Below the pieces are notes generated by a model. The model did no database searches. It was not told the origin of the DNA and was given only the letters and a program-made list of their open reading frames with translations. The position numbers and the translations under genes are program-made. From Isoetes taiwanensis (lineage: Eukaryota; Streptophyta; Lycopodiopsida; Isoetales; Isoetaceae), in the NCBI GenBank assembly GCA_021234155.1, contig JAJEKV010000014.1, positions 21,157,513 through 21,221,512 of the forward strand: 64,000 nucleotides of DNA, written 5' to 3'. Below are positions 32,733-53,751 of this stretch, piece by piece. Each line of letters begins with the position of its first letter. The first letter of the stretch is position 1.

Positions 32733-32739
32733 GAGAGAA

Positions 32740-33549: not shown

Positions 33550-33551
<2 letters not shown>

Positions 33552-34156: not shown

Positions 34157-34157
34157 C

Positions 34158-34187
34158 ATTAGGGCGGATTTGGGGTCTGAAAATGGC
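34158..34187 (+). repeat. Left terminal inverted repeat
   Basis: ATTAGGGC then GATTTGGGGTCT, ending aaatggc. Its inverted partner is 53722-53751. Similarity fades after base 30, apart from a shared ccacgtca. Confidence 0.8.
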
Positions 34188-34845
34188 TCATATCTTGGGT
34201 TAAAGATTTCCACGTCAGATTCGCCAGGACCAATCAGGTTTGCGCCTTTTTTACGAAAGTCAGTATTACTTGGCAGGTAGAAGGATGAGCAGGCTTACTT
34301 GGCATCCACATGGCGTATTTTCATAGGGGATGCCTGCACTTTTATTGCAACCATTTTAATGGGCCGTATTTTTCGGGAATCGCTTCACCGCCCAAAATAA
34401 TGGTGACTTTGACCGCCTACTGTCAGCGTCACCAAGTCCCTTGTCAAATTTTGGTGCCAAACTTCTGTACTGTCACTCCGGCGCCTCTATGTACATCCTC
34501 TCCGCCTTCACTCCTCATCTGCAATCCATGTCTCCCCGTAATTTTACGTGTTCTTGCCCCATTTACGAGAACTCCCAAGGTCAAGAAGTGGGAGGTTTTG
34601 TCTCAATAGGTTCGTGGGTGAGTATCTTTGCCATCAACGAGGGGCGAGCATAGAGTTAGCGACAAAAGCGTCATCGACGCGGACACATTGGATAGGTAGG
34701 GTAAAAGAGTTCAAGTTGAATTCTAGCGGCCGGAAAGTGGAAAGTATAACAATACGACATGCATATACCCCTTCTGAGGCCAAAGAGCTAATCTCCACCA
34801 AAAACAGCTTCCCAAAATTGCCCGCAAATGGTAACCACCTTAATC
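34188..34845 (+). other. Left-end unassigned open frames of the large element
   Basis: Overlapping + frames at 34310-34609, 34441-34653 and 34548-34892 suggest one frameshifted gene that ends near the first long hairpin. Parts such as WIGRVKEFKLNSSGRKVESI and AYTPSEAKE look protein-like. They vaguely recall a BAH-type domain, but I would not call one. No start is convincing. Confidence 0.25.
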
Positions 34846-34914
34846 GGATCACACGACGCCGAAGCTATCACGTCGACTACTTAACTGCGTAGAGATAGTT
34901 TGGCGTCGTGATCT
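34846..34914. repeat. Long inverted repeat 1 of the recurrent family
   Basis: The left arm 34847-34869 (gatcacacgacgccgaagct...) pairs with 34894-34914 (gatagtttggcgtcgtgatct), leaving a loop of about 24 nt. It lies at the end of the left-end frames. Confidence 0.75.
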
Positions 34915-35589
34915 CCTTTATCTTTCATTTCTTTCGTTGACACATGTTTATAAACAAATTTATTGTGCGGGTTTATGTTTATCGGGCGTCGTGGATGTCA
35001 TTCCGGCCGAAAGTATTAGTAGTGTACTTGTCGTGTATCACATAGACATCGGAATTGTCCTTTTCAAGGTATGGATGCCGTGACCTTGCGGGGTATAGGC
35101 ATCCGGTTTTACTGGACATGATTATAACGTAAAGGTCGAAACCGAGCTTGAGGCCTATTGAATTGCCCTTTAAGTGAACTTTGTAAACCACGGACTAATG
35201 AGAACAATGTAATTGCAATGAAGAAATGCATGGCTGACGAGGTGCAAGCGAATGTCTGAAAAACGGAGGGCGTGAGGATGAGTTTCAAAATCTTCACACC
35301 GCTTTGAGGTATTTGCTAACATATTCGGATAAATGCGCAGGAAGTTCGAAAAGCTCAGAAGACATATAATGCTTTCTCCCCCTACTTGGATTTTGTGGAT
35401 GGCTTATTTTTGGTTCCGACACAGGGATGTTCGATTCCACGAATCATCCGGTCAACTAACAGAGGTCCGCGTAGTTAAGTCCTCCCTTTAAGTTCGATAC
35501 TTTCTTCCAAAACAATATTTATAATGTTAATTGTCAACTAGAACGAAGGAAACAGAAAAAGAGAGGTTGCGCAACTTTTTGGGAGCCAT

Positions 35590-35772
35590 TTGAGGACCAT
35601 AACGAGTTACTCCGTCACGGTGGATATTCGAGTATGGAGAGGGGAGGAAGTCATTTATACAGCCACCATGGAAAGCGAATGGTCATTATCAGAGCTAAGA
35701 GTGCTAATGGAGACAGAGGAGATTGTTGACGACTTTCATTATTTCATTGATGGCATTAGGGTTGGTTTCTGA
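35590..35772 (+). CDS. Small unknown frame (no ATG at its start)
   Basis: A 60-codon frame (VDIRVWRGEEVIYTATMESE, then DFHYFIDGIRVGF) ends TGA at 35772. The only in-frame ATG is internal (35668), so it may be an exon or a decayed gene. I recognise no domain. It sits between the first hairpin and the H3-like gene. Confidence 0.25.
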   Translation: MRTITSYSVTVDIRVWRGEEVIYTATMESEWSLSELRVLMETEEIVDDFHYFIDGIRVGF

Positions 35773-36044
35773 GCAAGAGGGAAATGTAAAGTTTAGTGAG
35801 TTCGCGATCAACGAGAAATTGTCTATCGCTTAAGCGCTTTGAATCTCGGTTTTTTATTTGTGTTTTTGTCCGATGTTTTTTTAGGGTTCCGTATTTTGTC
35901 CGATATTTTTTTAGGGTTCCGTACAATTATTTAAAAACGTTACCATCATATTTTACTTTAACTTCTATTTTTTACTATTTATCTCTTGCCAGTTGTCTAT
36001 TTTTGTCGGTGTTAAGTAGTATAAAGCCCATCCGCCGAGAAGCC

Positions 36045-36936
36045 ATGGCAAGAACTAAGCAAACCGCAAGGATCCATCCAGTGGTGTAAGGCCGTGATTA
36101 CATTAGTCCGCCTCCTTCATCCGAATCAAGTCTCGATAGAGATTCTCCTCCTCCGACCATGCCTAACAGAAGACCCAGAAAAGAAATCCACATGACAGAC
36201 GGCGGGAGAAGCAGCTCCGGAGTAAGTAGGGAGGTGCACTCCGGTTCGGAGATGGAGGATGAAAATGTGAGAGACCGGCCGTGAGCGAATATGGCGGGAT
36301 TAATTATTGGGCAGCCGCCTCTTTCTTGCTCTTCTCGCTCCTCCCGCCCTCCCGTGGAGGTGCGGGACCTTCAAATCAAAGGAGGAGGCCCAACGCCAGA
36401 AAGGGGAAGGCGACCAGAAATGTGAGGAGACGGCCGGAAGAGTCGGCCGAGCAACAGCCTGCAAATGCTGGGGTGAGGAGACGTCCGGAAGAGTCCAAAT
36501 GCTGGGGTGGGTGAGGGTAGTGGCGAGAAGCGGAAGACGAAGCCTGGCATTAAAAGCTTCCAGAGATTAAGAAGTATCGAAGAGCACCGAGATGGTCATT
36601 CCGCGTCACACATTTGCGGGCTCGTGAAAAGAGATTCTCGCAAGAGTGTGGTGCGATACATCATACCGATTCTGAAATTCAAGCAACCGCCTTAAATGCT
36701 CTTCAAATGGCTTCGAAGCGGTTGGTGTCGGTCTGTTCGAGGACTCGCAGCCTTGCAAAATACATGCCAAGCGGGTGGCCCTCATGCCCAAGGACATGCG
36801 CCTCGTCTTACACATAAGGGATCCCCATTACTATGGTCAAAATTTTATGGCTGAATACAACAAGAAGAAAGACCCCGGAAAAAAAGGCCGTGAAGTGCCT
36901 TTGTGTTTTTTCATATGTATTGTAATGGCTTTATAA
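36045..36936 (+). pseudogene. Elongated, frameshifted histone-H3-like gene
   Basis: The product starts MARTKQTAR, the H3 tail through R8 with K4 kept and K9 replaced by Ile. TAA (36087-36089) and TGA (36282-36284) interrupt an otherwise open Ser/Pro/Arg-rich linker. A frame change leads to a basic repeat (VRRRPEES twice) and then KRKTKPG, the H3 'RPG' region. The fold follows in two frames: EIKKYRRAPRW to [19 protein letters not shown], and [20 protein letters not shown] then [11 protein letters not shown]. The latter is plainly the H3 alpha2-alpha3 region (GLFED...IHAKRV...MPKD). A Lys-rich extension ends at TAA 36936. Canonical H3 is 135 residues; here about 150 residues separate tail and fold. 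It looks like a once functional divergent H3 that has decayed. A TATA-like tataaag lies at 36020, and the inverted repeat at 37018-37086 follows. Confidence 0.75.
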
Positions 36937-37017
36937 GCAATCTCTTAGTCCATTTCTTTCTTAGAAGCCTAGGTTAAGCACTTTGTATTTTTTTTTTTTT
37001 TTTTTAATGTTATAATG

Positions 37018-37086
37018 AGGATCACCGACGGCCAGACAAGCATTGTGCTTTTGTTGCACATAGTAATCTTCGGCGTCGTGTGATCC
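37018..37086. repeat. Long inverted repeat 2 of the recurrent family
   Basis: The right arm ttcggcgtcgtgtgatcc (37069-37086) is intact. The left arm (ggatcaccgacggcc, about 37018-37032) has lost a few bases. It lies 82 bp after the H3-like stop. Confidence 0.7.
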
Positions 37087-37113
37087 AACCCTAACCTAAC
37101 CCTAACCCTAAAA
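37087..37113. repeat. Short telomere-like CCCTAA run
   Basis: Four CCCTAA-type units (aaccctaacctaaccctaac, then cctaaaa) directly follow inverted repeat 2. The run is too short to call a telomere relic. Confidence 0.5.
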
Positions 37114-37240
37114 TGTAATGGGACAAATCTCCCCACAATGGGTCGTGTCCCCTTTCATAATCGACAACGGCTACTTGAGTTCGAAGTGGCGATGACTTAC
37201 CGCTCCTAAACATCTTCTTGCTTTAAAAAATGCCTTCACC

Positions 37241-37669
37241 ATGGATTGTTATGTGAAGTTCCTGGAATGGTATGCATCCGCCCCACATGACAACGAGGAA
37301 GTTGCGCCGACTGCGATTTATCCATTCTATTGCAAGGAGTTGGACATCATGGCAAACAGTAGCGAGCTTGGATGCTATCGCGAGGTTGCCTTAGCTTTCA
37401 CCCGGACCGCTTGGTCTCACCGCACGTCCTTTGCAGATGTCCCTGGCTCGTGGATTCCAAAACCAGCTCTCGAGGAGGCGGCTTCCCATTTGCAAACAGC
37501 GAAGATGTTTTTCAAGAATGCTGCACAAAGGGTTGCGTCCTTGTACTTAAGAAGGTATCTTATTTCTCTTTGCCGTTTGCATTTGCTAGTTATTGCATTC
37601 TGCTCGGCCAAACCGAAGATACACTGGAAACATGAAATCTTTAAGCCAAGGGGGGTCAGTTATGTGTGA
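37241..37669 (+). CDS. Unknown protein, 142 codons, or first exon of the next gene
   Basis: The frame starts MDCYVKFLEWYASAPHDNEE and includes YREVALAFTRTAWSHRTSF and LEEAASHLQTAKMFFKNAAQ. I recognise no domain. A donor-like aagaag-gtatct at 37555 and acceptor-like tgctag at 37589 bracket 35 bp, but splicing them does not put this frame in phase with the following gene. I therefore list two overlapping genes (37-bp overlap) and note a frameshift as the alternative. Confidence 0.45.
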   Translation: MDCYVKFLEWYASAPHDNEEVAPTAIYPFYCKELDIMANSSELGCYREVALAFTRTAWSHRTSFADVPGSWIPKPALEEAASHLQTAKMFFKNAAQRVASLYLRRYLISLCRLHLLVIAFCSAKPKIHWKHEIFKPRGVSYV

Positions 37670-38486
37670 TGATGCTGACTATGACGTAGAAATGGAGATA
37701 GATCTACAAGAAGAAGAGCAAGAATGTAGGAGTTTTAGCCCGGCCTTGGCCTTGGGTGAACGGGAGGAGGGAGATGATTACGAAGGTGATGAGGATGGGG
37801 ATGAGGATGAAAAGAAGTTGTCTGACATAACGCCAATTTTAGTGGAAGGCAAAGAATACCTATTGCTAAGTGATATACTGAGGAACCCGTCTTTGTTACG
37901 AATGTGTGCTAGGAAAGATGAGCTTATCAGTACCTTGGCCGAATGGGTAAACCTAGGCCTAGATTTTGAAGAGGATTTGGACAAAGAGATGTTTGAAGTG
38001 TCTTCTTATACTGGCAATGCTATAAAGCTTAAAGAAGCCTATGAGAGGCTGGAGTCTCGATTTGCTCAAGAGGGCGAATCTACCAACAGAAGAAGAATTC
38101 CAGCGTCTCCGTGCAAAGCTGCCAATAGGATCTACAGGTTTGGCAAGCCCTTCAGTCAATCGCGGCAGCATAAGCCTCATAATGAGGAGAAATGTGAAGA
38201 AGATAAGCTTGACGTTTCTTATTTGTGGGAAGTAGATGATTTTTCTTGCCGACATGCACGCGGGGGACAGGAAAGATTGAAGGACTCTACATTGTTACGA
38301 TATATCTCAAGATTCGTTAATGGGGAGATAATCATCTTCAACAGAACTTTCAGTCCAAAGGGTGCAGAGTTTGTCTATTACATCCGTGCATTATGCATGT
38401 TCGGGAACCATTCCCAATTGGCATCAAACACTGAAAGGGTGATAGCAATTCGGCGGGATGTTGTGCTACAATATTTTGACGACTAA
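37632..38486 (+). CDS. Unknown acidic protein with a continuing frame after its stop
   Basis: From ATG 37632 (MKSLSQGGSVMCDDADYDVE) 284 residues are read to TAA 38486. There is an acidic region (EGDEDGDEDEKKLSD), then KEYLLLSDILRNPSLL and LSTLAEWVNL-like helices. The C-terminal part (LLRYISRFVNGEIIIFNRTF, FVYYIRALCMFGN) could fold as a globular domain, but I know no family. After the TAA the same frame stays open for exactly 50 codons to TGA 38639 (NMLNFLAAGLTHPRLEAG and so on), so the TAA is likely a nonsense mutation or a read-through site. An inverted repeat follows at 38742-38804. Confidence 0.6.
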   Translation: MKSLSQGGSVMCDDADYDVEMEIDLQEEEQECRSFSPALALGEREEGDDYEGDEDGDEDEKKLSDITPILVEGKEYLLLSDILRNPSLLRMCARKDELISTLAEWVNLGLDFEEDLDKEMFEVSSYTGNAIKLKEAYERLESRFAQEGESTNRRRIPASPCKAANRIYRFGKPFSQSRQHKPHNEEKCEEDKLDVSYLWEVDDFSCRHARGGQERLKDSTLLRYISRFVNGEIIIFNRTFSPKGAEFVYYIRALCMFGNHSQLASNTERVIAIRRDVVLQYFDD

Positions 38487-38741
38487 GCCGGTCTGCGGGC
38501 GAGCAATATGTTAAATTTTTTAGCTGCTGGCTTGACTCACCCAAGGCTGGAAGCTGGGGTCGATAACATGGAAGACATTGCCTTGTTGGATCAGTGCGGC
38601 AAAGGATTGAAAGAGCATGAAATTGACGACGAAGCTTGAAAAATTGGAAGTTATATATTTTCCAACTTGTATCAATAAAATTATTTATGTACAGATTGTC
38701 CTTCCGAAATTCCTAATAAAAATTATTTTATTTGTATTTAT

Positions 38742-38804
38742 TCACATCACGCGAAATACATCAGTCTGATTTTCTGTCATATCTAGGTTTTCGCGTCGTG
38801 TGAT
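38742..38804. repeat. Long inverted repeat 3 of the recurrent family
   Basis: The left arm tcacatcacgcgaaa (38742-38756) is paired with gttttcgcgtcgtgtgat (38787-38804). A weaker relative of one arm (tcatacgatgcgag) lies at 38861-38874, just upstream of the next promoter. Confidence 0.75.
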
Positions 38805-38913
38805 ATTTATCTCGAAGAAATGAAATATTATTAGAAAAAAACAATTAATTTATTTATTCCTCATACGATGCGAGAAGCAACTCGTGTGACTCAAGCTACT
38901 ACGAAATCTATGT

Positions 38914-38921
38914 TATAAATA
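38914..38921 (+). promoter_or_regulatory. TATA box of coiled-coil gene 1
   Basis: TATAAATA lies 110-117 bp before the ATG at 39031 and is followed by a CT-rich leader (cttctccgccttctccgcct). The same layout precedes the two paralogues. Confidence 0.6.
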
Positions 38922-39030
38922 GAAGACCTTCTATCTTGCCTTCGACCTCCGATCCTCTTCCGCTCATCTTCTCCGCCTTCTCCGCCTTCTGCTCATCTTC
39001 TCCGCCTTCCGCCTTTCGCTTTCTGCTCCG

Positions 39031-39405
39031 ATGGCATCTTCATCCTCCTCCAGCAAGCGACCACGCCCAGAGCTGCCTGCGGACATCACCCTTGCAGTGG
39101 TGATGAAGAGATTCAAGGAGGTTCACGACGAAAACAGCCGTCTCGTCCCCGAGAAGATTGAGGTGGTCGACAGGTTAGAATTCACGAGGGGGCTACTGCA
39201 TGAGCGAGACCTTGAGCTCGCGGCAACATTAACCAGGTACCGAGAGGCCAATAGCCGTAGGGTCGAGGCAGTTTTAACTGCCCACAATATTTCGCAGACG
39301 TTAGAAGATATGGAGAAGAAGCTTCGAGCTGCGGAGGATGAGAACGCAGCTTTACGGCTTCAGCTACAGGATCATCAAAATCAGGAGGATCATGAAGATC
39401 CCTAG
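39031..39405 (+). CDS. MASS-type coiled-coil protein 1
   Basis: 124 residues. The start MASSSSSSKRPRPELPADI is followed by TLAVVMKRFKEVHDENSRL and long heptad-like helices rich in Glu, Arg and Leu (LHERDLELAATLTRYREANS, then EKKLRAAEDENAALRLQLQD), with an acidic His/Asp tail. The N-terminus closely matches the gene at 46961 (ELPSDIVLGVLMKRLKEQHD), so they are paralogues. No known domain is seen. It is probably an oligomerising coiled-coil protein of unknown role. TATA box, CT-rich leader and a following inverted repeat (39491-39559) are all present, and the frame is intact. Confidence 0.75.
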   Translation: MASSSSSSKRPRPELPADITLAVVMKRFKEVHDENSRLVPEKIEVVDRLEFTRGLLHERDLELAATLTRYREANSRRVEAVLTAHNISQTLEDMEKKLRAAEDENAALRLQLQDHQNQEDHEDP

Positions 39406-39490
39406 CCATTGTATCTATATATTTTTTATTTCAAAGAAAAGTTTTCTCTATTTCTTGCTTCTATCTGTTCTCTTGTTTTGTTTTATTAAA

Positions 39491-39559
39491 AGATCACACG
39501 ACGCGAAATGCCATGCTTGCAATTAGGTAGCAATCAATGGATTTCGCGTCGTATGATCT
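39491..39559. repeat. Long inverted repeat 4 of the recurrent family
   Basis: Arms agatcacacgacgcgaaat (39491-39509) and atttcgcgtcgtatgatct (39541-39559) pair at 18 of 19 positions around a 31-nt loop. The repeat begins 85 bp after the stop of coiled-coil gene 1. Confidence 0.85.
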
Positions 39560-39910
39560 CCATAACGTACACCTCATTGTATGTATAAATTCCTAATTTA
39601 TTAATGGAAAACTATATGTAACACAAATATCTAGCTAGATTATGTGATAACTTGCAGGTAAATGCGAATTAGTCATATCTAGGATTGGCAAGCGCCAGCA
39701 CCCAAAGCACGTGGCAAGGACGTGGCATGCGCTGCCACAATAACACTGTCTTTTGTACGGCCTGCATACAGTACGGCTAGGATATGACGGATCCCATGAT
39801 GCGAACATAGGCTACCGTTGCCTAATTGCATGCTATAATTTCGCCTCGTAGAATTATTACACAACTTTATCGGTACTCGCAACCGTAGATTCCAACGTAT
39901 CTCTAGTTTC

Positions 39911-39918
39911 TATATAAA
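39911..39918 (+). promoter_or_regulatory. TATA box of coiled-coil gene 2
   Basis: TATATAAA lies 98 bp before the ATG at 40009, with a CT-rich leader between them. Confidence 0.6.
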
Positions 39919-40008
39919 ACGTCGGAGGTCTTTGTCTTCTCCTATCCGCCATCTCCTGTTCTACCACATCCGTCCTCAGCCATCTCTCCTGTTCTCCCAT
40001 CACTTTCA

Positions 40009-40111
40009 ATGGCCTCCAGCTCCAGTTCCATCCCTGCCGAGATCTTGTCTCAAGTTCTGGTCAAGGAAATTAAGAACATTCGTGCTGAAGCGGAGGAACG
40101 GATCCGCCTTC
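40009..40111 (+). pseudogene. MASS-type coiled-coil gene 2, 5' part (interrupted)
   Basis: MASSSSSIPAEILSQ and 18 further residues are read before a Ty3/gypsy element inserts at 40112. The remainder is at 45960-46273. Removing the element and one copy of its 5-bp target duplication joins the halves in frame as a 138-residue paralogue of genes 1 and 3. The insertion is thus the visible lesion, and the gene was otherwise intact when hit. Confidence 0.75.
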
Positions 40112-40629
40112 TGTCATGAACCTACTCGAAAACAAGGAAAATATGTGGAACATACGCAAGAAATACGGAAGAAATACGCCAAGATCGGCAAAGAATCTGA
40201 TATATGAGCAGGAATCAAGAATACAATAGCCCGAAGGCAAGCAGGAATACGAGATAGATGCCTAGAAGGCTCAAGACTGGCGTTGAACCGGAATGGTTTT
40301 GACAAGAAGGAGGTGCCTCCTTATATATCTAGACCAACGGTCAGGATCGCGCCACTCCAATGGATGAGATCGCTAAGTGTCGCTAAGATGCATTTAGGTT
40401 CTAGAACATTCTAGAACCTTCGAGATAGTCCCACATATGAGGAAGACGTGAAGGAATGTCTTCAACAAATATTGATAGCGCACTTGGCAAGGGTGTGTGA
40501 CTCGCAACTGGAAGGTTGCGAGTTCAAACCCTGTCTTGTGCAACTACCCTTTTGCATCCGTGTGACGACCATCTTTTGTACATAGGAGTATAATGTTCGT
40601 ATGATACAAATATCCGTATGGTCGCCACA
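40112..40629 (-). repeat. Ty3/gypsy 3' LTR
   Basis: About 518 bp, differing from the other LTR by small indels and substitutions. On the + strand 40473-40545 holds a tRNA-like segment with an A-box-like tagcgcacttggcaagg and a B-box-like gcgagttcaaaccc, suggesting a SINE or tRNA remnant inside the LTR. Confidence 0.9.
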
Positions 40630-40945
40630 CCATCCCTCTCCCACGATGGCGACGAGTCCTCGGCCGGGCGAGTACTCGGACTTGGCTTATGCGTAACGCG
40701 TCGGTGAAACTCCGCAATTTTGTCGCATTAGTCGATTCTCGCAGGGCTCCCGTGTTTACGTCACTTGGCGAAGTAACCTTCCCAATCGACAAAGTAATAC
40801 AATCGTCGGCGAAGAAACTTGAGTCCGTAATCTCTCGAACCTCAAACTCCTCATGATCATCAATCTCGACTGGTGGTGGAGGTGGAGGTACTCGATCCGG
40901 AAATGGATTCGCTATATAGGGTTCTAACAAAGGCACATGAAACAC
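40544..40945 (-). pseudogene. Integrase C-terminus with chromodomain remnant
   Basis: FHVPLLEPY and a Pro-rich spacer precede EFEVREITDS. In the next frame LYYFVDWEGY follows (near 40785-40815), the core of a chromodomain. This marks the element as a chromovirus. A frame change and a stop disrupt it. Confidence 0.7.
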
Positions 40946-41249
40946 TGGGTGAAGCCGGACCGATGGCGGAAGCTCCAGACGAAAGCAAAGATCACCAACT
41001 CGCTCAATGATCCGATAGGGGACCTAAGCCCGGTAGTCGAGCTTGTTACAAGGGCGAGCTGTCGGCAAATCCCGACGCAAGAGCCAAACAAGATCACCAA
41101 CTGCAAAATGGGGAGCGTCCTGACGATGCTGATCTGCATGATGACGATAACGTGCTTGGGCCTGGAGAAGATGGTGCTGAAGATCATCACGGCATGCGAG
41201 CTTCTCGAGCTCGTCCTCGGCGACTGATTGATCGAGTCATATCGAGCAA

Positions 41250-41860
41250 TCAAAGACTACCGGGATGCATGCCGAAATTAATCTGAGTCCGGCCTGTGGA
41301 GGCATGGATAGAATTATTATAAGCAAATTCGCGCCACGGTGAGCCAATCAACCCGTCATCCTGGCGATAATTGATGAAGCATCGCAAATCTTGCTCAAGG
41401 GTTTGATTAATGCGCCCACCGCCCATTGGTCTCTGGATGATGTCCGGAAGAGAGCGAACGTTCCACATGCAAGAGTTGCAATAGACGCTTCCAAAAACTG
41501 GCAACAAATTGAGGGCCGCGGTCACTGACAATATTATCTGGTAAGCCATGGAGTCGAACCACCTCTCGAAGCAAGAGAACCGTTGTGGCTTCACTAGAGA
41601 TAGAGGTGCTGCAAGGAATGAAATGTGCCATCTTGGAAAAACGGTCAACAACAACAAGGATAGCGTCATGGCCCTGGGAAGATGGAAGCTCGACAATAAA
41701 ATCCACTGAAATACTCTTCCAAGGACCGGCTGGAACTGGTAAAGGCTGAAGCAAGCCATGAGGAAGATGCCTTGAGAGTCTTGGCTACTCCAAAGTGTCC
41801 GGCCAGAGGTGAATCATGGCAAGCCTGAAGAACCTGAAGCCTAGAAGCACCATCTGGCAC
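41250..41860 (-). pseudogene. Ty3/gypsy integrase
   Basis: The zinc-binding CHDSPLAGHFGVAKT is followed by the DDE core: ISVDFIVELPSSQG, then GLPDNIVSDRGPQFVASFW and SSGHHPETNGR. The catalytic D, D and E positions are visible. Frames change near the end. Confidence 0.8.
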
Positions 41861-41898
41861 ATATAGAAGCCCATCACGGAGCAGAGTCCATCTCAACC

Positions 41899-43562
41899 TC
41901 AAACGATCATAGTCCGATCCCATCTGGCGAGAAGATGATGCAGCGCCAATGTGTGAGAATACATCTTGAGCCAATGGATCGGAGGGCGAGATGCTCGAAT
42001 GCACTCCAACAAGATCAGATCATGAGGCCTCTCGAACAAAGTGAGAGCCATAAAACGGAACCGATCGAGCCCTAAAATAACCTGTGATTGCCGATCATAT
42101 GCGGGATCACCTAGTTTGGGCTCAAGGTAGGAGCGTCCGAGACAAGGCATCGAGGCTTTCCTTGGAGGGATCCGGGCGGTACTTGATGACGAAATCAATC
42201 CGAGATAATACTTGAGTATGCCACCGGGACTGGCGGCGGTTGAGCACTCGAAAGCGGTGAAAAATATTCGAGATTTCGGTGATCCGTGTAGACTGACCCT
42301 TATAAGGAGATCCCTCCAGAAACGTCTCCACTCCTCGAAAGAATCCACTATCGCCAACAACTCCTTGTCATAAATGGGATAGTTGATTTTAGCAAACAAA
42401 CTTTTAAGTGAATGATAGGCGATTGGATGCAATTCATGATCATCCCCTCCCCGTGATGATCCCACCAAGCGCCAAAATCAGAAGCATCTGCTTCAACAAC
42501 ATATGGGCGCAAAGGATGCATGAGCAAGAACCGGGCGCCCGTGGTGAAAGCATGCTTCGTGGCAACAAAAGCGATTCCGCTTCCACAGTCCATTCGAATG
42601 GCACGTCCTTGACAGTGAGGCGTGTTAAAGGAAGAGCAATCTCCGAATAATCCCGGATGAAACGCCGATAGAAATTGGCAAACTCAAGAAAACACTGAAC
42701 ATCTCGAACGGATGAAGGTGTTTGCCACTCGCAAAAAGATCTTGACCTTTTCGGGATCCATAGAGACTCCATGTGGTGTGATGCGATAACCAAGGAACTC
42801 CACATTATCCTGTTCGAACTGGCATTTCTCAAGTTTGGCATATAATCCATGCTCACGAAGCTTTTGAAGGACCTGTCGAACATGTCTTGCATGTTCTTCG
42901 AGAGTCTTAGAATAAATAAGGATATTATCCAAATAGATGATAACAAAAGTGTCTAAGAACTCTCGAAAAACATCATTGGCCATATCTTTGGAATATCTTG
43001 CGAGCATTGGTAAGTCCAAACGGCATAACTGTGTATTCAAAATGGCCATACCGAGTACGAAAGGCTGTTTTCCACTCATCACCCTCCCGGATCCGAATAA
43101 GATTATAGGCACCCCGAAGATCAATCTTCGTAAAATAGTGTGCACCTTGGAGTCGTTCCAACAACTCTGGGATCAGAGGAAGTGGATACCGATTTGGCAC
43201 TGTGATTTTATTGAGGCCACGATAATCAACGACCAGACGCAGCGAACCATCCTTATTTTTGACGAAGAAGATAGGCTCCCAGCCAGGATCGAGAATGTCG
43301 AATGAAGCCCGATTGGCTAAATTCTCTTCAATATAATCCCGCAAAACCTTCAACTCAGCGGGAGATAGACCATATATCGGACCATATGGCGCGTGGTCCC
43401 CGGCTGCAAATCAATAGGACAATCATATGGACGATGCTCTGGGAGTTTGTTGGCCTTGACTTTGTCAAAAACATCAGAGAAGTCGCCATATTTATCTGGG
43501 AGCATTGGAGCAGACTTCGCTGATGCCGAGCTAGCCGATGGGTGAACCTGGATTGCAAACAC
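41899..43562 (-). pseudogene. Ty3/gypsy reverse transcriptase and RNase H, frameshifted
   Basis: In order: [60 protein letters not shown] and [12 protein letters not shown]. The YLDN shows Asn for the second catalytic Asp. Then comes RNase H ([21 protein letters not shown]). At least three frame changes occur, so no active enzyme can be made. Confidence 0.85.
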
Positions 43563-44500: not shown

Positions 44501-44859
44501 AAGGCATCCACGAGCGATATGGCCAGCTCCTCCACAAGAGAGGCAAAGATTAGCCTCTCCGACGCCGCTTCTCGGCGGCGGATAAGGGGTCCTCGAACTG
44601 CCTCGATCAATGCATAGGCTCAGTCCGGATCCGCTAGATTCTACGAGATAAAATGGGAAGGCGTAGCTATAGGCGCTGTGTAATTGGAAAGACCTTACTA
44701 CGCTCTCTCTTGCCTACGCTCAAGAGCCGATTATCACATCGAACCGCAAATCTGATGGCTTCTTCCAAACTCGGGATCCTCCATAGACAACAACATATCT
44801 TTGACATCCTCTCGTAACCCCTTCGAAAACAATCTCGGTGCAATATCATCCCGTAGTAT

Positions 44860-45381
44860 CTACGCAATTTGACGAAATTCTCGATGCATATACCGGCCGG
44901 GCGAGAGCCTTGCCTTAAGTTGCAAAGTTTTGTGATCGGCTGCTTGTCTTGTTGACGACGGTGTCTCCAAAGCATGCTTCGAAGTTAAGCAGTGAAAGCA
45001 AAGAAAATCTTGCAACTCTAGGGCTCCTTTCTCCAATAAAGGAGCAAACCAACTTAGAGCTGGCCCTGTGAGAAGAGAACCAATCAGCCCCACTTGTTCT
45101 TGAGCTGTGGGATATCTATGAGGATGGAGCTGAATCACAAACCTGATCTGATTCAAAAAACCGCGGAGCTTGGACCGAGTGCCGTCAAACTTTTCTGGCA
45201 GGCTGATCTTAGGCTCTGATAGCCTCAATCCCGAGCTAGAAGCGGATTCTTGTGAAGCAATATGTTCCTTAAACTCTTTATTGTCCAACTGCAACTGCTG
45301 GCATACTTGAACAAGCTGCTGGACCTGCTGTAATAAAGTCGGAACCTCCTCCATAGATATAAAATCACCAAATATGAGCAA
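44860..45381 (-). pseudogene. Ty3/gypsy gag
   Basis: A 173-codon frame with an N-terminal coiled coil and SLPEKFDGTRSKLRGFLNQI, then VGLIGSLLTGPALSW. This is the capsid-domain signature of Ty3/gypsy gag of the sushi/chromovirus type. The frame breaks before the zinc knuckle, which is found at 44504-44545 (CLSCGGAGHIARGC, CX2CX4HX4C). Confidence 0.8.
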
Positions 45382-45436
45382 AAAAAATGCTTAGGATCGG
45401 AGCAGACAAGAACCGGTAAGCGATTCCGGTTCAAAC

Positions 45437-45954
45437 TGTCATGAACCTACTCGAAAACAAGGAAAATACGTGGAACATACGCAAGAAATATGGAAGAAAT
45501 ACGCCAAGATCGGCAAAGAATCTGATATATGAGCAGGAATCAAGAATACAATAGCCGAAGGCAAGCAGGAATACGAGATAGATGCCTAGAAGGCTCAAGA
45601 CTGGCGTTGAACCGGAATGGTTTGACAAGAAGGAGGTGCCTCCTTATATATCTAGACCAACGGTTAGGATCGCGCCACTCCAATGGATGAGATCGCGCTA
45701 AGTGTCGCGCATGCATTTAGGTTCTAGAACATTCTAGAACCTTCTGGAGATAGTCCCACATATGAGGAAGACGTGAAGGAATGTCTTCAACAAATATTGA
45801 TAGCGCACTTGGCAAGGGTGTGTGACTCGCAACTGGAAGGTTGTGAGTTCAAATCCTGTCTTGTGCAACTACCCTTTTGCATCCGTGTGACGACCATCTT
45901 TTGTACATAGGAGTATAATATTTGTATGATACAAATATCCGTATGGTCGTCACA
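45437..45954 (-). repeat. Ty3/gypsy 5' LTR
   Basis: The partner of 40112-40629, with the same tRNA-like insert at about 45801-45872. The minus-strand sequence right after it (gtttgaaccggaatcgc, 45436 downward) is where the primer site should be. I cannot match it to a tRNA from memory. Confidence 0.9.
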
Positions 45955-45959
45955 CCTTC

Positions 45960-46273
45960 TAAAAAAAAAGAATGATGAAGACGTCACCAAGCTGGTTGCG
46001 GCAAAGGACAAGGCCGCCTTCTATAGGGAGGTGATTTTAGTGCGTGACAATCAGCGGGCTGCCTTAGACCGCGAATTGCGCGCCACGAGATATAACCTCC
46101 AAGAGAGGCTTAGGGCCGCAATCGAAGCGGGAGAGGCTGCCCGAGCTCAACTCGATGAGCGGGAAGATAAGGTTGCGGAATATGAGAACGTGGTTGCGGG
46201 GCAGGCAATCATGTTGGAGGAGCAGAAAAAAATTATCACTGCCCTCCAGGAAGAGCTTGCCCGGCGATCATAG
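45960..46273 (+). pseudogene. MASS-type coiled-coil gene 2, 3' part
   Basis: The continuation starts in a short poly-Lys stretch and reads heptad-rich helices (DELRATRYNLQERL-type text, AAIEAGEAARAQLDERED, EEQKKIITALQEELARRS) to TAG 46273. No stop lies within it. Two inverted-repeat structures follow at 46374-46592 and 46668-46732. Confidence 0.75.
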
Positions 46274-46373
46274 GCATCGGGCTCCTCCTAGAGGGGCCCA
46301 TTTTTTTTTTTTTAATGTTTCTAATTATTTTGTTTCTCAATCGGAAAAGTTTTTGAGAAATGTGCCGAATATT

Positions 46374-46592
46374 ACGTCAAGGCAAGTGGGTCTGCCTTCC
46401 GGAAGATTTTCCATCCATTCATATCAAGAATAGCAAATCGCTATCCAAAACCTGTAGAATCAGGTTAACAGCTTGCCTTGACGTCATGGAACAAGAAGGG
46501 GTCAGCCATTCTTGCTTCCCCCTGACCTGCAGAATTCGGTCGCGCCTACACGGCACTCCCGGATTCTGCAGGTCAGGGGGAAGCAAGAATGG
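46374..46592. repeat. Nested hairpins with a perfect 30-bp stem
   Basis: 46506-46535 and 46563-46592 are perfect reverse complements (core cttgcttccccctgacctgc) around a 27-nt loop. Left of it, acgtcaaggcaag (46374-46386) pairs with cttgccttgacgt (about 46474-46486), enclosing a small aacctgtagaatcaggtt hairpin. All lie in the 3' flank of coiled-coil gene 2. It could be a fold-back element or a small-RNA precursor. Confidence 0.85.
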
Positions 46593-46667
46593 ATTCCCCC
46601 TTCCCATTCCACATAACGTTTCCTATTTTTAATTTTCAATATCCGTGGTAGAGAGAATGACAAGACA

Positions 46668-46732
46668 GATCACACGAAGCGAAACCCTTCATAGGGTTTT
46701 AAAGCTCGTGTGCAGATTTCGCGTGGTGTGAT
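46668..46732. repeat. Long inverted repeat 5 of the recurrent family
   Basis: Arms gatcacacgaagcgaaac (46668-46685) and gatttcgcgtggtgtgat (46715-46732) pair, with a small extra palindrome (aaacccttcatagggttt) in the loop. Confidence 0.8.
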
Positions 46733-46867
46733 ACAGTGTAGTTAGAATAGTTATTAATGTGTTCCAGCGGACAGTACCATTATTGTGTTCTAGCGGACAA
46801 CCGACAGAATCCGCTCGACACTTGCGACAGCAGCCGACTGTGTTTAATATGTTCAAGCGCTAATATG

Positions 46868-46874
46868 TATAAAT
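46868..46874 (+). promoter_or_regulatory. TATA box of coiled-coil gene 3
   Basis: TATAAAT lies 93 bp before the ATG at 46961, matching the spacing at the two paralogues. Confidence 0.6.
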
Positions 46875-46960
46875 TGAGGTCCTTGCATTGTGCTCCTTCT
46901 GCCGGTTAGAGTCTTTGCTCCTCACTTCTATAATCTTAACGTCCCTCCCATTTGTCATCT

Positions 46961-47431
46961 ATGGCCTCCACATCCTCAATCGCTGATAAGGAAAAACGCA
47001 AGAGGATAGAACTCCCTTCTGACATAGTGTTGGGTGTTCTAATGAAGAGGTTGAAGGAGCAACATGATCTTCTAAAGGAAAACGCCGTTACAATTCAGCA
47101 GAAAGAAGAAGAGAATGAATTCAACCTTCTCATGCTTCGTAGCCAGGAGAGGCAAATCAGGCGGTTGAATAGAAGGCTGGAAAGGAGGGGATGCCCCAAC
47201 AACTGCACTGAGGTGGTTATGACGGCAACGAGGTTGCTAATTCAGGCAGAAGAACACGTTGTGCTATTGGGACAGGAGCGGGACATGTACAAAGAGATGG
47301 TCAACAGATTGGAGGAACGTTTGGATAGGGTGATTGCTCGCTTGAGGAGAAGAGATGAAGACGAAGACGAGGACGGAGCTGATGATGATGATGAAGATAA
47401 TGAAGAAGAGCTCGCATTGGAGCAACAATGA
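46961..47431 (+). CDS. MASS-type coiled-coil protein 3
   Basis: 156 residues from ATG 46961: MASTSSIADKEKRKRIELPS, then DIVLGVLMKRLKEQHD, heptad-rich Arg/Glu helices (RQIRRLNRRLERRG, EMVNRLEERLDRVIARLRR) and a strongly acidic tail (DEDEDGADDDDEDNEEE). It is a paralogue of the genes at 39031 and 40009 and is intact. Frame-extending codons upstream start with TTG, so I chose the ATG that gives the family's MAS start. Inverted repeats lie between its stop and the convergent gene at right. Confidence 0.75.
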   Translation: MASTSSIADKEKRKRIELPSDIVLGVLMKRLKEQHDLLKENAVTIQQKEEENEFNLLMLRSQERQIRRLNRRLERRGCPNNCTEVVMTATRLLIQAEEHVVLLGQERDMYKEMVNRLEERLDRVIARLRRRDEDEDEDGADDDDEDNEEELALEQQ

Positions 47432-47513
47432 GTCGTTGTATTTTGTTTTTCAATGTAACATTTTTCACAACTTTAATCAAAAGTAACCTTTTTTTATTAT
47501 TATCTTGTAAAGC

Positions 47514-47633
47514 TTCACACGACGCGAAGCCACATAAATGCAAGCAATAGCGAACTCCACTACAAATAAGATCACACGACGCGAAGCTACAGTTGTGCAA
47601 ACAAGGTTGGAGGCAAGTACTTCGCGTCGTGTG
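47514..47633. repeat. Long inverted repeat 6 (two left arms, one right arm)
   Basis: ttcacacgacgcgaagc (47514-47530) and gatcacacgacgcgaagc (47570-47587) both face acttcgcgtcgtgtgaac (47618-47635). It sits between the convergent stops at 47431 (+) and 47647 (-), so it may serve both genes. Confidence 0.85.
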
Positions 47634-47646
47634 AACATGCTACACA

Positions 47647-50185
47647 TTACAAGTATACTTTACCGATTCTTTGTCTCTTAGATCTCCACTGTTGTGATGC
47701 TAGTGGGGCCCTAGAATTTTGCCAAGCAACTTTCTCGCTTTTTCTCTTGACATTATGCCAATGGTGTTTACGACTTCTGGGTTGCTCCTTAAAGCGACCT
47801 TCTTGTCGTGATTTAGCCATCGCCCTTCTATAAAACCACTCATCATCTGTCTTTAGAGGGTTGGTTCCCACATTTCCACCCCCTCTTTGAGTGTTACGAT
47901 GAAAGGCTATTTTAGCTTGTTTATGCGACTTCTCCATGCCTTGTGCACTCCACACTGCTAGGCTTCCATACTTCCTAAAAAACCAAGGTGCATGAGCCCA
48001 AAAGATGTGCAAGTAGTGCGTGACTTCACTCTCTCCCCATGCGTCTATGAAAGCTCTAATAAATTTGTTATTCGCTTGCACGAACATTTCTGCATCTTCT
48101 CTTGTGAGGTCCATTCTCTGACTGTATGGGAACAATTCAGACAATACATCCCATGCTTTTTTTTCCTCAATGCCGAACGAACGCCATCTGTGCGGTCCTG
48201 CTCCGCATCAACCAGCAATTTTCCAAATTCATAGACCTTTTCTCCCATCTGGTTTCCGTTCAGAGCCTCTCTATGATTCTTTATGAAGCGTCGAGCTTTC
48301 ACCCCTCCAATTGACACCTTACGAGGCACACTTGTTCTTCCTGCCTGTTTCTCATCGAGCTCTAATCTTACATTGCCACCATCCAAACCTGCTTCTGATA
48401 GAACATGTTCAACTCTACGAATTCCTTCCTCTCTTCTCTTCTTGTTTGAAATGTTCCACACGAATCTGCAGCTCAAAAATATCATCTTGTCGATGATTCT
48501 CACAAAGCCGTGCAAAGTGCAGATATGAACCCTCTCTAATGGAATGGGGAAAATGCCATGGAACTTGGGATCTTCTTCTCCTCTATTAGGAGCATTTGCT
48601 TGGTTAAGGGACAAGGTTGAAACAGTCTTCCCAGTACTTGACTTCCTTGCATGATTGCAGTACAGACAACTTTTGCATGTTCCTTGTCCTCCTGTTGTAC
48701 ATTGCTTTCTCAGTTTTTAAATCAGACGCCAAGTGAAAAATTACTTTGTAAGATCCATAGTGATCTACTTGCAATTTTTCCCCTCCCTCGAATCTAGATA
48801 TTAGACTCGTGATGTCAGTTTGATTGAACACCCATTTCAATACCTCGTGGGTTTCTTTCTGAACTTTAAAGAGACCTAACCACTAGGTGTCATCTTTAGA
48901 TTGACATGAGAACCATTTTTCGGCACGCTTCTTCTCCTCGTCCGTCACCTCTACATCATTTTTATTATTCTTGTTGCTCTTTGATTTAGCATGTGCAATT
49001 GCATTCTCAATTGCTCTATTCATGATGACAACGGATACCCTCTCATACTTCTCAAACTTGGTCAGTTCCATTTCATCCAATTTTATGCAAACTTCAATCT
49101 CACCATTAGTTTCTCGAATCATTAAGTCATAATATTTGACAAGGAATTGTAAGAGAGTAACCAGGTCAACCCAAAGATTATTATGTTCATTCATTCCAAC
49201 CATATCACAACAATCCTTGCCATTCTTATCTTTTATGGCTATGGCGGGACCAAAGACATTCAACGTGGTGCATCTCTCCAAATATGGCATACACCATCTT
49301 TGTCCTAGTAACCCTTGTATTCTCGACAATTTGTGGACGTGGAGCGAATACTTTTTTTGTGCCCATTCTTTTCAACGCTTTGTGGAATGGCTTGAATAGA
49401 GAACGGTAACCAAGCCTACTGATGCCTACATCATCACAAACAGTCTGTACATCTGTCGCTTCTAGCTTCTTGTAGATCTCTCCTAGTACCATTTCCAATA
49501 CCATCTTCTTGAGAGAAGAGTTGTAGGGCTGACAAATCATGTCCACTATCTCCCTGTTTGTCGCTAGGTTCTTCACTACGTAACCAAGATTGCTTCTAGT
49601 TTCCCCAGATCTTAATAGGCCTTTGCTAGTGTTGTAAATGGACCTTGTGGCCGTGACCCTGCGTCTGAATGCACCTGATCCAAACTTTAGTTCCTCTATC
49701 GGTTGAAAGTGCTTCTTCCTTTCTCGCAAGCCAAGGGGTGTTTTCTTCAAATTCTTTAACCTACATTGAAGCCCAAAGTTTGCTCTTTCGAGCTCTTGGA
49801 TGATCTTTTCTTGCAGCTGCCCTATCACCAATTTGGACTTGTCCACTTCATATCTCAAAGAAGTTTCCCTCCCCAAGCCGTCATTCCTTTCCTTCATTAC
49901 AATGGAGTAATGAAGCGAGAGAAAAAAGAGCTGCTGGTTTAAGTTATAATTCTCTTGTGACAATCGGAAGCAGCTCATCTCAAGGAACTGTATTCGATTC
50001 CGAATGCCTTCATCCTCTCTCAATCTCTCACAATATCCCAAGAGGCCAGAGTTATCGTCACCACAAAATCGGACTAAACTTGAAACGTCCCGAAATGACG
50101 GTTTCTTGCCACTCAACGGATCCAATAGATATAAACTGCCATCCGCCCAGATGTCGACACTTTTTGAGCCTGTAAGATGCAACAT
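47647..50185 (-). pseudogene. Broken unknown gene of about 840 codons
   Basis: Five consecutive minus-strand frames read as one protein. 50185-49226 is coiled-coil-rich (MLHLTGSKSVDIWADGSLYL, KLVIGQLQEKIIQELERANF). After a frame change, 49329-48604 follows (ERCTTLNVFGPAIAIKDKNG) with an in-frame TAG at 48883-48885. A one-base shift near 48610 leads to 48614-48045. Another shift near 48140 leads to 48144-47647, ending with the conserved-looking VTHYLHIFWAHAPWFFRKYG, SLAVWSAQGMEKSHKQAK and a basic tail. The last part resembles multi-copy uncharacterised proteins I remember from plants and invertebrates, but I cannot name the family. As the largest gene of the element it is the best candidate for its mobility enzyme, by position and size only. 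Confidence 0.6.
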
Positions 50186-50283
50186 GTCGAGGTCTAAGTT
50201 CTTATTTTTTAGACCTCCTTTTTTGCGATTGAAGACTGGAGCATATTCGGAGTCGGGCTTGGATCCTTATCCACACATCATTT

Positions 50284-51015
50284 GGAGCTTCCATATCATG
50301 CGGGATCGCCGCGGCGAAAATGAAGGTGTACAATTTGTATGCCCCAAAGACAATTAAACCCGTGTGAGCCGAGCGTCCGTGCATTACTAACCTCGTTTTT
50401 GAAATTTGCAACGTGCATATGGAAATCGAAAAGTCCATTCTCCTACAATCCATGCTTTTATACATAAGCAAATTCAAAATTCGAATTGTAGGGGGCGGGA
50501 AGCCCAGATTGGGATGAAGTAAAGATCCCGCTACTTAACTTTTAAGGTGCAATCGCCTCCTGAAATGAAAGTCTGATACAAAGCTTCAACCTACACATTC
50601 AAATTTTGAAATGTAGAAGGCGGGAAGCTTGTATGGCCATGGCCTCTAAATGAAAATAGCGCAAGACAAGAATCGGTGATGTGCATGCTTGGTATCTGAC
50701 AAACCAAGAGACACCGTCATGAGTTGCCGGTATGCTATAATGCAAGTGGCTTTCTAGAAGTGCCACGTGTTGCATCAATCTGTCTGACAACCAACAGAAT
50801 TAAATACATATGGCGCCATAAATCTGTGATCCCCTTATTTCGGGAGAATATTCCAAGCAAATCTGTAATTATGAGAGTTTGGTATCCTAGGTGGCATGGG
50901 AAAAAAGGAGCGGAAATATGACGTGGAATGGCTGATAGGAGGCCATTTTGAGACCCCAAATCCCCAAGGAGCAGAAATATGACGTGGAATGGCTGATAGG
51001 AGGCCATTTTAGTTC
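50284..51015. repeat. Direct repeat, left copy (right copy 53147-53740)
   Basis: About 600 bp match the right end of the large element, including 'gaaatttgcaacgtgcatat', 'catgcttttatacat', 'gccggtatgctataatgcaa' and the terminal gaccccaaatc. The left copy ends with an internal relic of the terminal repeat and a tandem duplication of about 61 bp (ggagcggaaatatgacgtgg..., 50909 and 50970). Confidence 0.8.
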
Positions 51016-51111
51016 ATAAAACATAATATAACTTGGAATATTTTATATGCAAATGGGAGACTATTGATGAGGGACTTGGTGTTATTATCTATTGACAACA
51101 AACAAGAAAGT

Positions 51112-51707
51112 GGATCACACCATGTGAATTTAGTATATTCCAACCTTTTAGCTTATACAAAATTCGCTTGGTGTGATCTTTTTGGAAAAAGATGACTTCC
51201 TATAGTAAAATTACTTTGATTATCTTTTAATAAAAGAAATATATATGTGTCTTATTTGAAGTTAAGTGTGGATATGTGACGTGCTCATTTATTGATAAAG
51301 TGTTTGCTTTTTGAAAAAGGCTAATAACTTTATGTACTACTAGAGTTGGTTGATGTGATCCTTCTTAAAAAAAGATCTGCTCTTTGAAAAGGACTAACAA
51401 CTTTATGCACTTATGGTGGTAAAGCATTAAATGAGAAGGGGTACTTGTGTTTAATTTTAATTTGACAACAAATAAGAAAGTGGATCACACGATGCGAATT
51501 TAGTGTGTTCCATTTTTGTTGCACATGTACTATTCGCTTGGTGTGATCCTTCTTGAAAAATAATATGCTCTTTGAAAAGGGATAATGACTTATGTACTTA
51601 AGAGTGGTAAAGCATTTTAGATACAAATAGGAATTTTACGTACGCTAAGTTGTAAGTTCAATATTTGTGTTTCTATTTACTTTTTTACGCAAGGATCACA
51701 CCAAGCG
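51112..51707. repeat. Recurrent inverted repeats 7-9 in a locally duplicated block
   Basis: Arms 51112-51131/51161-51178 (ggatcacaccatgtgaattt and aattcgcttggtgtgatc) and 51482-51500/51532-51548 form two hairpins. A lone arm ggatcacaccaagcgaatcc lies at 51692-51711. Flanking phrases (gacaacaaacaagaaagtgg; ctttgaaaagg) recur with them, showing local duplication of about 370 bp. No gene lies here. Confidence 0.75.
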
Positions 51708-51711
51708 AATC

Positions 51712-52240
51712 CTCTTTAAACAAGGATGGCTTTGACCTTCAATGTTCATAAATTTTATGAATGTTTGCATATAAGAATGTCACATATCATATTTTCTTAA
51801 AAAATAATCATCAAATGGATAACTAGTCAAAGAGTTCTTCTACTACTTAAAGAGTTTCAAGACTCGTTTTTGCTATAATTTAAACAGCAATAGATTTTTA
51901 AAGGAATCTGTTGTGAAAAGTAGTCAAAGACTTCTTGTATTAGAGGTATCTAAACACAAACACCATAACACAGTACAATAAAAAAACACATGTACAGTAA
52001 CACATGTACAGTAAAAAAAACAAGTTGGGTATTCAAATGGAATTAGAAGCAAAAACTTTTTACATTCAAAATTTTTTATGGCCGTATGGCTTTACATCAG
52101 AACATCATTTTGTAAATTTAAATGCCCGGAAGCTTCAACTATTCACAACAAAAAAGCCCAGAGGCTTGCAGTCATATGGTAAGAAGCTGGAGGCAAGCTG
52201 GAGGCTAAGAACAAGGAAAAAAAAAAAGAGGTGCTCTGCC
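51712..52240. other. No gene seen
   Basis: AT-rich DNA with poly-A runs. A 99-codon frame at 52004-52303 has no recognisable content and lies antisense to the small acidic gene's end. Confidence 0.5.
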
Positions 52241-52250
52241 CTAACAAATT

Positions 52251-52674
52251 TCATTCATCTGCTTCACCATCTGCAAAACAAAAAAATAAGAAATAACTGT
52301 TAGTTGAATGCTTAAGAAAAGAAAGAAAACATGCATGTACCATTTAGCAACGCCATGAGCTCCTCGAAGTCAGCGGATTCATCTTCAACTTCTTCATCTT
52401 CTTCATCATCTTCGACTTCTTCTCCTTCGGTAGACCACTCATTCTCTGAAGAATCTCCTATCCAGCCTTTAAGAACACCTATGATGAACTCCTGCTCCGA
52501 AATTTCCTCTGATTCCTCATTCTCTGATTCCTCGTCAAAGGAATCAGAGGAATCAGAGGCATTCAGAGCAAGAACCGTGGGCAGCGGAGGGAACTACGGA
52601 GGGAACACCTCTTCCAGCCGTAATAGGCGCCTCTTGGAGGACACCTCCGGCTCTTCCGTAGCTGATCTCTTCAT
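52251..52674 (-). pseudogene. Small acidic protein gene with one intron and one in-frame stop
   Basis: The minus-strand ATG at 52674 starts MKRSATEEPEVSSKRRLLRL. TAG at 52594-52596 lies within a 12-bp near-duplication (ttccctccg-tag, ttccctccg-ctg), and the frame then stays open through an acidic Ser/Glu region (EEEVEDDEEDEE-type) to 52341. A GT-AG intron (52271-52340, with a tttttttgttttgcag acceptor) leads to a short last exon ending TGA at 52251 (NDGEADE). The intron shows this is a eukaryotic-type gene. The TAG may be a mutation. The + strand Ser-rich frame across the same DNA is its shadow. A tatatctat lies upstream, near 52760. Confidence 0.5.
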
Positions 52675-52864
52675 GGCGATGGACTAGCGAAATTGGGCGA
52701 AGGATCTAGCGAAGATTGGGTGGAGATTGGGGGGAGAATGGGCGCCAATCTAGGCTGGATAGATATAGGCTGGATTAGACGTGAAAATCGTAGGAATGAT
52801 TCAAATTCCAGTCCTATCAACCATCATTACATGCCATTATGTGCATGTCTCGAAATTTGAGCCA

Positions 52865-52936
52865 TATCCAATATCTTCCTTTTTTAACCTTATTCCTAAA
52901 TATCCAATATCTTCCTTTTTTAACCTTATTCCTAAA
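52865..52936. repeat. 36-bp tandem duplication
   Basis: The unit tatccaatatcttccttttt plus taaccttattcctaaa occurs twice in a row. Confidence 0.9.
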
Positions 52937-53144
52937 CCTATATGATTTGAGTTTAACCTGAAAATGAACACCGATATAATTCGAATTTAACATATTATTT
53001 AATACCAAGATGCTACGTCACACTATGTCGATAATTGGGATTTAAAAAAAAAACACTCCAAACCCTCCTCGAGAAAACCACGTAAGTGCCGACCTCACTT
53101 GTGTTTAAGTTTAATTTGACAACAAGCAACTTCCATACTGCGTG

Positions 53145-53215
53145 GATCGCACAGCGCGAAATGAAGGTGTACAATTTTTATGCCCCAACACAATTCGCTT
53201 CGTGTGAGCCGAACG
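53145..53215. repeat. Long inverted repeat 10 of the recurrent family
   Basis: ggatcgcacagcgcgaa (about 53145-53161) and ttcgcttcgtgtgagcc (about 53193-53209). The equivalent place in the left direct repeat (about 50299-50370) is present but mutated out of pairing. Confidence 0.7.
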
Positions 53216-53740
53216 TCCGTAGTAACCTCATTTTTGAAATTTGCAACGTGCATATGGAAATCGAAAAGTCCATTCTCCTACAATCCATGCTTTTATACAT
53301 TAAGCAAATTCAAATTTCGAATTGTAGGGGGCGGGAAGCCTGTATTAGGATGAAGTGAAGATCGGTTAAGGCGCAGCCGTAGCGCCTCGAAATGAAAGTC
53401 TGATCTGATACAAAGCTTCAACCTACACATTCAAATTTTGAAATGTAGAAGACGGTGACGCGCACGCTTGGTATCTGACAAACCAAGAGACACCGTCATG
53501 AGTTACCGGTATGCTATAATGCAAGTGGCATTTTAGAAGCGCCACGTGTTGCATCAGTCTGTCTGACAACCAACAGAATTAAATACATATGGCGCCATGA
53601 ATGTGCAATCCCCCTTATTCCAGAAGAATATTCCAAGCAAATTTGTAATTATGAGAGTTTGTTATCCTAGGTGGCATGGGAAAAAAGGAGCGGAAATATG
53701 ACGTGGAATGGCTGATAGGAGGCCATTTTGAGACCCCAAA
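53147..53740. repeat. Direct repeat, right copy, ending at the right terminal repeat
   Basis: Same orientation as 50284-51015 and about 2.86 kb from it. This copy carries the true right end of the element. Confidence 0.8.
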
Positions 53741-53751
53741 TCTGCCCTAAT
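53722..53751 (-). repeat. Right terminal inverted repeat
   Basis: gccattttgagaccccaaat then ctgccctaat, the inverse of 34158-34187 with two mismatches. An internal relic of the same end (gccattttgagacccc...) lies near 50943-50965. Confidence 0.8.

Follow-up and report, generated by a model that had tools for sequence, protein, structure and literature searches.

The question raised by this locus is what kind of mobile element carries a histone H3-like gene, tandem coiled-coil-like genes, a large minus-strand gene and repeated inverted-repeat pairs, and how such an element came to lie inside a single long terminal repeat (LTR). The locus is found in a 64,000-nucleotide stretch of the Isoetes taiwanensis genome (hereafter the window; GenBank assembly GCA_021234155.1, contig JAJEKV010000014.1, positions 21,157,513 to 21,221,512 of the forward strand), and window coordinates are used throughout. 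The initial annotation, made from the letters of the window alone, listed this cargo, all of which is present, and stated that it fits no element class known to its author. Our analysis indicates that the element probably represents a high-copy family of cut-and-paste DNA transposons of about 14 kb, with a transposase of the RAG1/Transib type, flush joining to the target and chromatin-related cargo.

Boundaries, copies and target sites

Comparison of ends across copies, together with the LTR junction, places the element at 34157..53752 (CATTAGGGC..GCCCTAATG). The copies set its terminal bases at C34157 and G53752; its ends read CATTAGGG..CCCTAATG, and one copy has the variant left end CACTAGGG. 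Positions 34155-34187 and 53722-53754 form an inverted match of 33 nt (94% complementary). Because the ends defined by the copies leave two flanking bases on each side, the inverted repeat inside the element is 31 bp long (left repeat 34157..34187, plus strand; right repeat 53722..53752, minus strand). The inverted pair recognized initially therefore stands, but its limits (34158..53751, with 30-bp ends) fall one base short at each end.

The flanking sequences are the left (33776..34156) and right (53753..54138) halves of one interrupted LTR, both on the plus strand, as had been proposed. When joined, they align across the junction to an uninterrupted sister LTR that represents the empty site (29900..30500, plus strand), at 84.1% over 610 columns within 29880-30520, with gaps located elsewhere. 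A second, inverted sister within 29035-29610 matches the region around the junction over 56 columns, interrupted by a single 1-base gap a few nucleotides left of the junction. Relative to either sister, 0 bases were gained or lost at the insertion point, and both flanks fit one LTR site rather than different LTR copies. Under the empty-site reading, GATATCTTCAT would be the junction sequence of the uninterrupted LTR; an LTR shorter by two bases would make AT a duplication. In the same neighbourhood, a large inverted pair (27630-29508; arms 95-97% complementary in three pieces, around approximately 1.1 kb) resembles nested or head-to-head LTR pieces.

Searches of the 1.66-Gb genome with the left 443 bp and the right 621 bp identified at least 40 places each, scored among 1,355 and 1,522 first-look candidates, respectively (window included, 93-100% identity); both counts are lower bounds. 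The initial annotation had proposed looking for inverted pairs of ends 10-25 kb apart, and some left and right ends do lie about 14 kb from each other. An element with terminal inverted repeats, copies elsewhere and flanks derived from one LTR is thus real. Among 11 left ends the mean pairwise difference is 2.0% (range 0.5-3.6%), and the element is a high-copy family with many young copies.

For copy comparison, 20 kb was fetched for each of ten copies. A Ty3/gypsy LTR element is nested at 40112..45955 (minus strand; RVT_1 and SH3_Tf2-1 above the cut-off, a Ty3 capsid-like match below it), with its own LTRs differing by 3.8%. It was rejected as an integral part of the element: eight of the ten fetched copies cover the site and all eight run directly from 40112 to 45955, which makes the gypsy a later insertion in the window copy. 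Two small insertions, at 46377..46613 and 51610..51997, are not present in any of the copies covering these sites (eight and four, respectively). Later insertions thereby account for approximately 6.5 kb of the 19.6 kb, and since they lengthen the window copy, the family element is about 14 kb. The 19.6 kb given by the initial annotation holds for the window copy but not as the size of the family. End positions give about 14 kb for copies C1089, C948, C1103 and C1035; the remainder include longer copies (C1067 at 17.6 kb) and interrupted ones.

Copy C1018 stops at an inner right end (approximately 11.7 kb), and the window contains a truncated equivalent of this end at 50288..50963 (plus strand). 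The longer form may have arisen by addition of a second right end outside the first, which would be one way of gaining cargo. Within 50288-51010, the truncated right end is followed by another right-end fragment of 45 bp, suggestive of stacked ends.

The target-site sample comprised 41 copies (the window copy and sets of ten, twenty and ten others), of which 25 (5, 14 and 6) were dropped because the second end was not seen in the piece fetched. In 15 of the 16 copies with both ends readable, no exact flanking repeat of 3-12 bp was found, and matching 2-mers at the flanks occurred in 2 of 16 pairs against 1.5 expected from mismatched pairs. Copy C1046 sits in a 26-bp satellite; its flanks match in register at offsets of 26 and 52 bp (21/26 and 40/52 matches), but not at neighbouring offsets. 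The LTR and the satellite are thus two sites for which the sequence before insertion is known, and at neither did insertion duplicate or remove bases. Erosion probably does not explain the absent duplications, since left ends are so little diverged. As a rule, insertion leaves no target duplication in most copies sampled. The flanks of the 16 paired copies also show a slight excess of T just to the left and of A just to the right (7/16 each), too few for a target preference.

The minus-strand gene and the weighing of its role

The large minus-strand gene (47647..50266, five open frames in the window copy) most likely encodes a DDE transposase with a RAG1/Transib-type fold, judging from its relatives, a structural model and sequence motifs. 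Seven database relatives were identified. The model of one of them, P0005, has RAG1, RAG1-like and Transib structures as its top matches and shows an RNase H-like order of strands; the final acid of the DDE set was aligned by hhalign. The C(2)C motif is found in the window's piece and in six of the seven relatives (P0001 has FLYC), and the H(4)H motif in the window and in the two relatives that extend that far. DDE chemistry is suggested by this fold and these motifs. The gene first described as large and unknown, in an element of no recognized class, thus looks like a DDE transposase of the RAG1/Transib type, with the motifs of the CMCT clade of transposons and CA..TG ends.

Several observations weigh against this reading. 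The structural model is that of a database relative whose identity to the window's pieces is 30-34%, and it is weak (predicted local distance difference test score, pLDDT, 55.1). Sequence likeness to RAG1 is marginal: Pfam gave an E value of 0.012 in one of 12 members scanned, hhalign comparisons with RAG1 yielded E values of 0.013-0.037 at probabilities of 1-3%, and no match emerged when PDB sequences were searched with a profile of the transposase. In most of 17 frames, the changes that distinguish copies show no concentration at third codon positions (a possible exception being one transposase frame, in which three copies have 13, 15 and 28 changes), and many indels are not divisible by three, some of which may be assembly errors; evidence of selection after insertion is consequently slight. 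The target-site test is limited to the 16 of 41 copies that could be paired. One of these, C908, is flanked by an exact 5-bp direct repeat (GCTTG) of Transib length, with 0.00 expected from mismatched pairs. Imperfect in-register repeats flank C1103 (9/11 bases) and, in a long and weak form, C948 (28/51), both unexplained, and a weaker one flanks C1035 (7/12). Given that each of 12 pairs was tested at approximately 148 lengths, the imperfect repeats were not counted.

Short target duplications of about 5 bp are a known trait of RAG1-like and Transib elements. The family could be an ordinary Transib/RAGL-type or other CMCT transposon, with duplications missing through recombination among copies or imprecise insertion. 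The 5-bp repeat of C908 and the imperfect 11-bp repeat of C1103 speak for this, and more than 1,000 first-look candidates make shuffling of ends by recombination possible. We nevertheless consider it unlikely: at the LTR site both flanks fit one LTR and join exactly, the satellite insertion is in phase, and the left ends are young.

It could also be argued that the family is a non-autonomous passenger, its transposase-like gene being dead cargo while the enzyme of another element moved it. The transposase frame is indeed broken in all six copies read, and substitutions look neutral in most frames. Against this, the copies have the gene in common and long frames of up to 857 aa persist in some relatives elsewhere, so that we are inclined to doubt the passenger explanation and to retain a family with its own RAG1/Transib-type enzyme.

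Cargo genes and paired sites

The remnant of an H3-like gene (36045..36936, plus strand) begins with MARTKQTAR, followed by a long stretch before the histone core; its frame is broken in the window. H3 matches were found in 10 of 10 copies searched, and C1088 is without that region. In the copies the core contains a 4-residue insertion. In C1040 the core shows 57% identity to H3 residues 41-132, carries four additional residues in loop 1 and is extended at its C-terminus; five stops lie between the H3-like start and the core in that frame, reflecting either an intron or breakage. Despite the loop-1 insertion we do not claim CENH3 identity: the 60 listed of 175 PDB matches all have H3 or general histone names, none CENP-A or CENH3, and the best 120 of 6,443 protein-database matches (38-64% identity) include two named CSE4.

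Downstream, one or two open frames (157 and 298 aa) occupy 37196..38486 on the plus strand. No Pfam match was obtained for the 298-aa frame, and a 283-aa part of it folded with pLDDT 33.5, a model that was not used. The Pfam scan covered 20 open frames, three of them in the nested gypsy.

Three coiled-coil-like genes, so labelled by eye from the sequence, were distinguished on the plus strand. The first (39031..39405) starts MASSSSSSKRPRP, and other copies have two such genes in a row at this place. Copy comparison showed that the second (40009..46273) is split by the gypsy at 40112-45955. The third (46961..47431), recognized as an open reading frame, starts MASTSSIADKEKRKR. In comparison with the three genes of the window, four in tandem were found in four of five copies searched; the fifth, C1075, has three in the piece searched and a fourth placed in the next piece. 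Single genes of this type look open in some copies (e.g. 172 aa in C1067). A short acidic open frame is located at 52312..52593 on the minus strand.

The repeated hairpins of the initial annotation are present as inverted-repeat pairs, but we favour reading them as pairs of DNA sites with nearly constant spacing. A 15-bp motif, ATCACACGACGCGAA, occurs with up to four mismatches 24 times in the element and three times in the rest of the window, compared with a mean of 3.4 and a maximum of 6 in 20 mononucleotide shuffles. Of 73 head-to-head motif pairs within 200 bp in the fetched loci, 49 have a start-to-start distance of 49 or 50. The window contains nine well-formed modules, each a pair of 16-bp sites, and none lies outside the element. 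Modules 1 (34847..34915) and 9 (53145..53209) are subterminal at the left and right ends, respectively. The others, at 38740..38805, 39492..39558, 39790..39855, 46668..46733, 47570..47636, 51113..51178 and 51483..51548 (modules 2 to 8), are mostly intergenic. The 33-37 nt between arms have no evident common sequence. The fit of an arm to its own partner exceeds its fit to the partner arms of other modules only marginally (13.0 versus 12.4 of 16; permutation p 0.029, nine modules), for which reason paired DNA sites are preferred over RNA hairpins. A search of the whole window against Rfam at gathering scores gave no match.

By its size, its histone-like gene and the hairpin-like repeats between genes, the element might recall the remnant of a large DNA virus or a Polinton-like element. 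This origin is very improbable in view of its CA..TG ends, and no viral polymerase or packaging match was obtained among the frames given to Pfam; in viral contigs, 174 stretches matched the search pattern and none was confirmed as a transposase relative.

Other features of the window lie outside the element. Two neighbouring frames at 16496-18722 (plus strand) have an ARID match (E 1.1e-11) and a Myb-like match just below the cut-off (E 0.00011); they look like a host gene, which we take to be of plant type. Long GA runs extend over 32125-33640, and arrays of short AGAATCT-like repeats are found at 59000-61600 inside a tandem duplication of approximately 1.2 kb, with pieces 97-99% identical.

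Proposed mechanism and place among known systems

In the cut-and-paste mechanism that we favour, the transposase, whose gene lies on the minus strand close to the right end, would cut at the CA..TG inverted ends, as its fold and motifs suggest, and would join them to the target without a staggered cut; as a rule, therefore, no target duplication would be left. The pairs of 16-bp sites, approximately 34 bp apart, may serve to dock a protein encoded by the element itself, the most likely candidate being a coiled-coil dimer. The histone could conceivably help the element to assemble or escape host chromatin, though this is guesswork.

A bolder and rather doubtful proposal is that the family is a separate RAG1-like lineage, in which flush integration, resembling the way V(D)J joins ends, its own H3 variant and an array of coiled-coil cassettes with paired sites serve together in handling its own chromatin. 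An enzyme family related to that of RAG1-like and Transib elements, but with elements that insert flush, would naturally link transposition to the way in which V(D)J recombination cuts and joins DNA. The core histone cargo would point to a chromatin strategy unlike that of the demethylases and methyltransferases described as transposon cargo in PMC12730594. With many young copies in the genome, empty alleles and expressed genes are open to direct search.

Among established systems, Mavericks/Polintons make a 6-bp target duplication, whereas an exact 6-bp repeat flanks 0 of 16 pairs here. Genes for a B-type polymerase, an integrase or a capsid were likewise not found among the 17 open frames scanned outside the gypsy, in a scan that was not exhaustive. 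Helitrons differ in having no long terminal inverted repeats, in contrast to the 31-bp inverted ends of the element. Spy transposons, placed with the PHIS group, share insertion without duplication (seen in the element at 15 of 16 pairs and at both known empty sites), but have a PHIS-type transposase, for which no Pfam match was obtained in the frames scanned; the fold list of the modelled relative is headed by RAG1/Transib.

Chromatin-related genes are also carried by TET/JBP-bearing DNA transposons of fungi and by SET-bearing transposons (PMC12730594), but the cargo described here is a core histone and not a modifying enzyme. In the literature on transposons carrying histone H3 or CENH3 and on RAG1/Transib relatives (including PMC9435367, PMC8355894 and PMC12730594), as far as the accessible parts of these sources go, no element was recognized as this one.

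Transib and RAGL elements share with the family a fold over most of the RAG1 core (in a relative, from a weak model), the C(2)C and H(4)H motifs and ends beginning with CA. They differ in that a 5-bp duplication is found in only one of 16 element pairs, the ends of the element start CATTAGGG, its size is about 14 kb with histone and coiled-coil-like cargo, and sequence likeness is marginal. In PMC9435367, 39 Transib-like proteins are reported from plants, and 5-bp duplications from a protist RAGL element; given the former, the presence of such an enzyme in a plant is no novelty by itself.

The CMCT clade comprises EnSpm/CACTA, Mirage, Chapaev, Transib, Plavaka, ESTA and Lanisha, and is marked by C(2)C and H(3-4)H between the second D and E, mostly CA..TG ends and 2-5 bp duplications (PMC12730594). 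The element shares the DDE-type transposase (shown for the relative, pLDDT 55), both zinc motifs and the CA..TG ends. In contrast to the clade, 15 of the element's 16 pairs lack a duplication of at least 3 bp, and the element carries a histone, a cargo not described for the clade in the available part of that source. It is quite possible, although we lean against it, that the element is Lanisha, a little-described superfamily proposed in a 2020 Repbase report; this overlaps with the favoured cut-and-paste reading and concerns the name. In the 2025 paper (PMC12730594) Lanisha stands beside EnSpm, Transib and further members with the C(2)C and H(3-4)H motifs, both of which the element has, but the clade is there given 2-5 bp duplications, at variance with the 15 of 16 pairs that lack an exact repeat of at least 3 bp. 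We place the element within or near the CMCT group, and not as a Transib.

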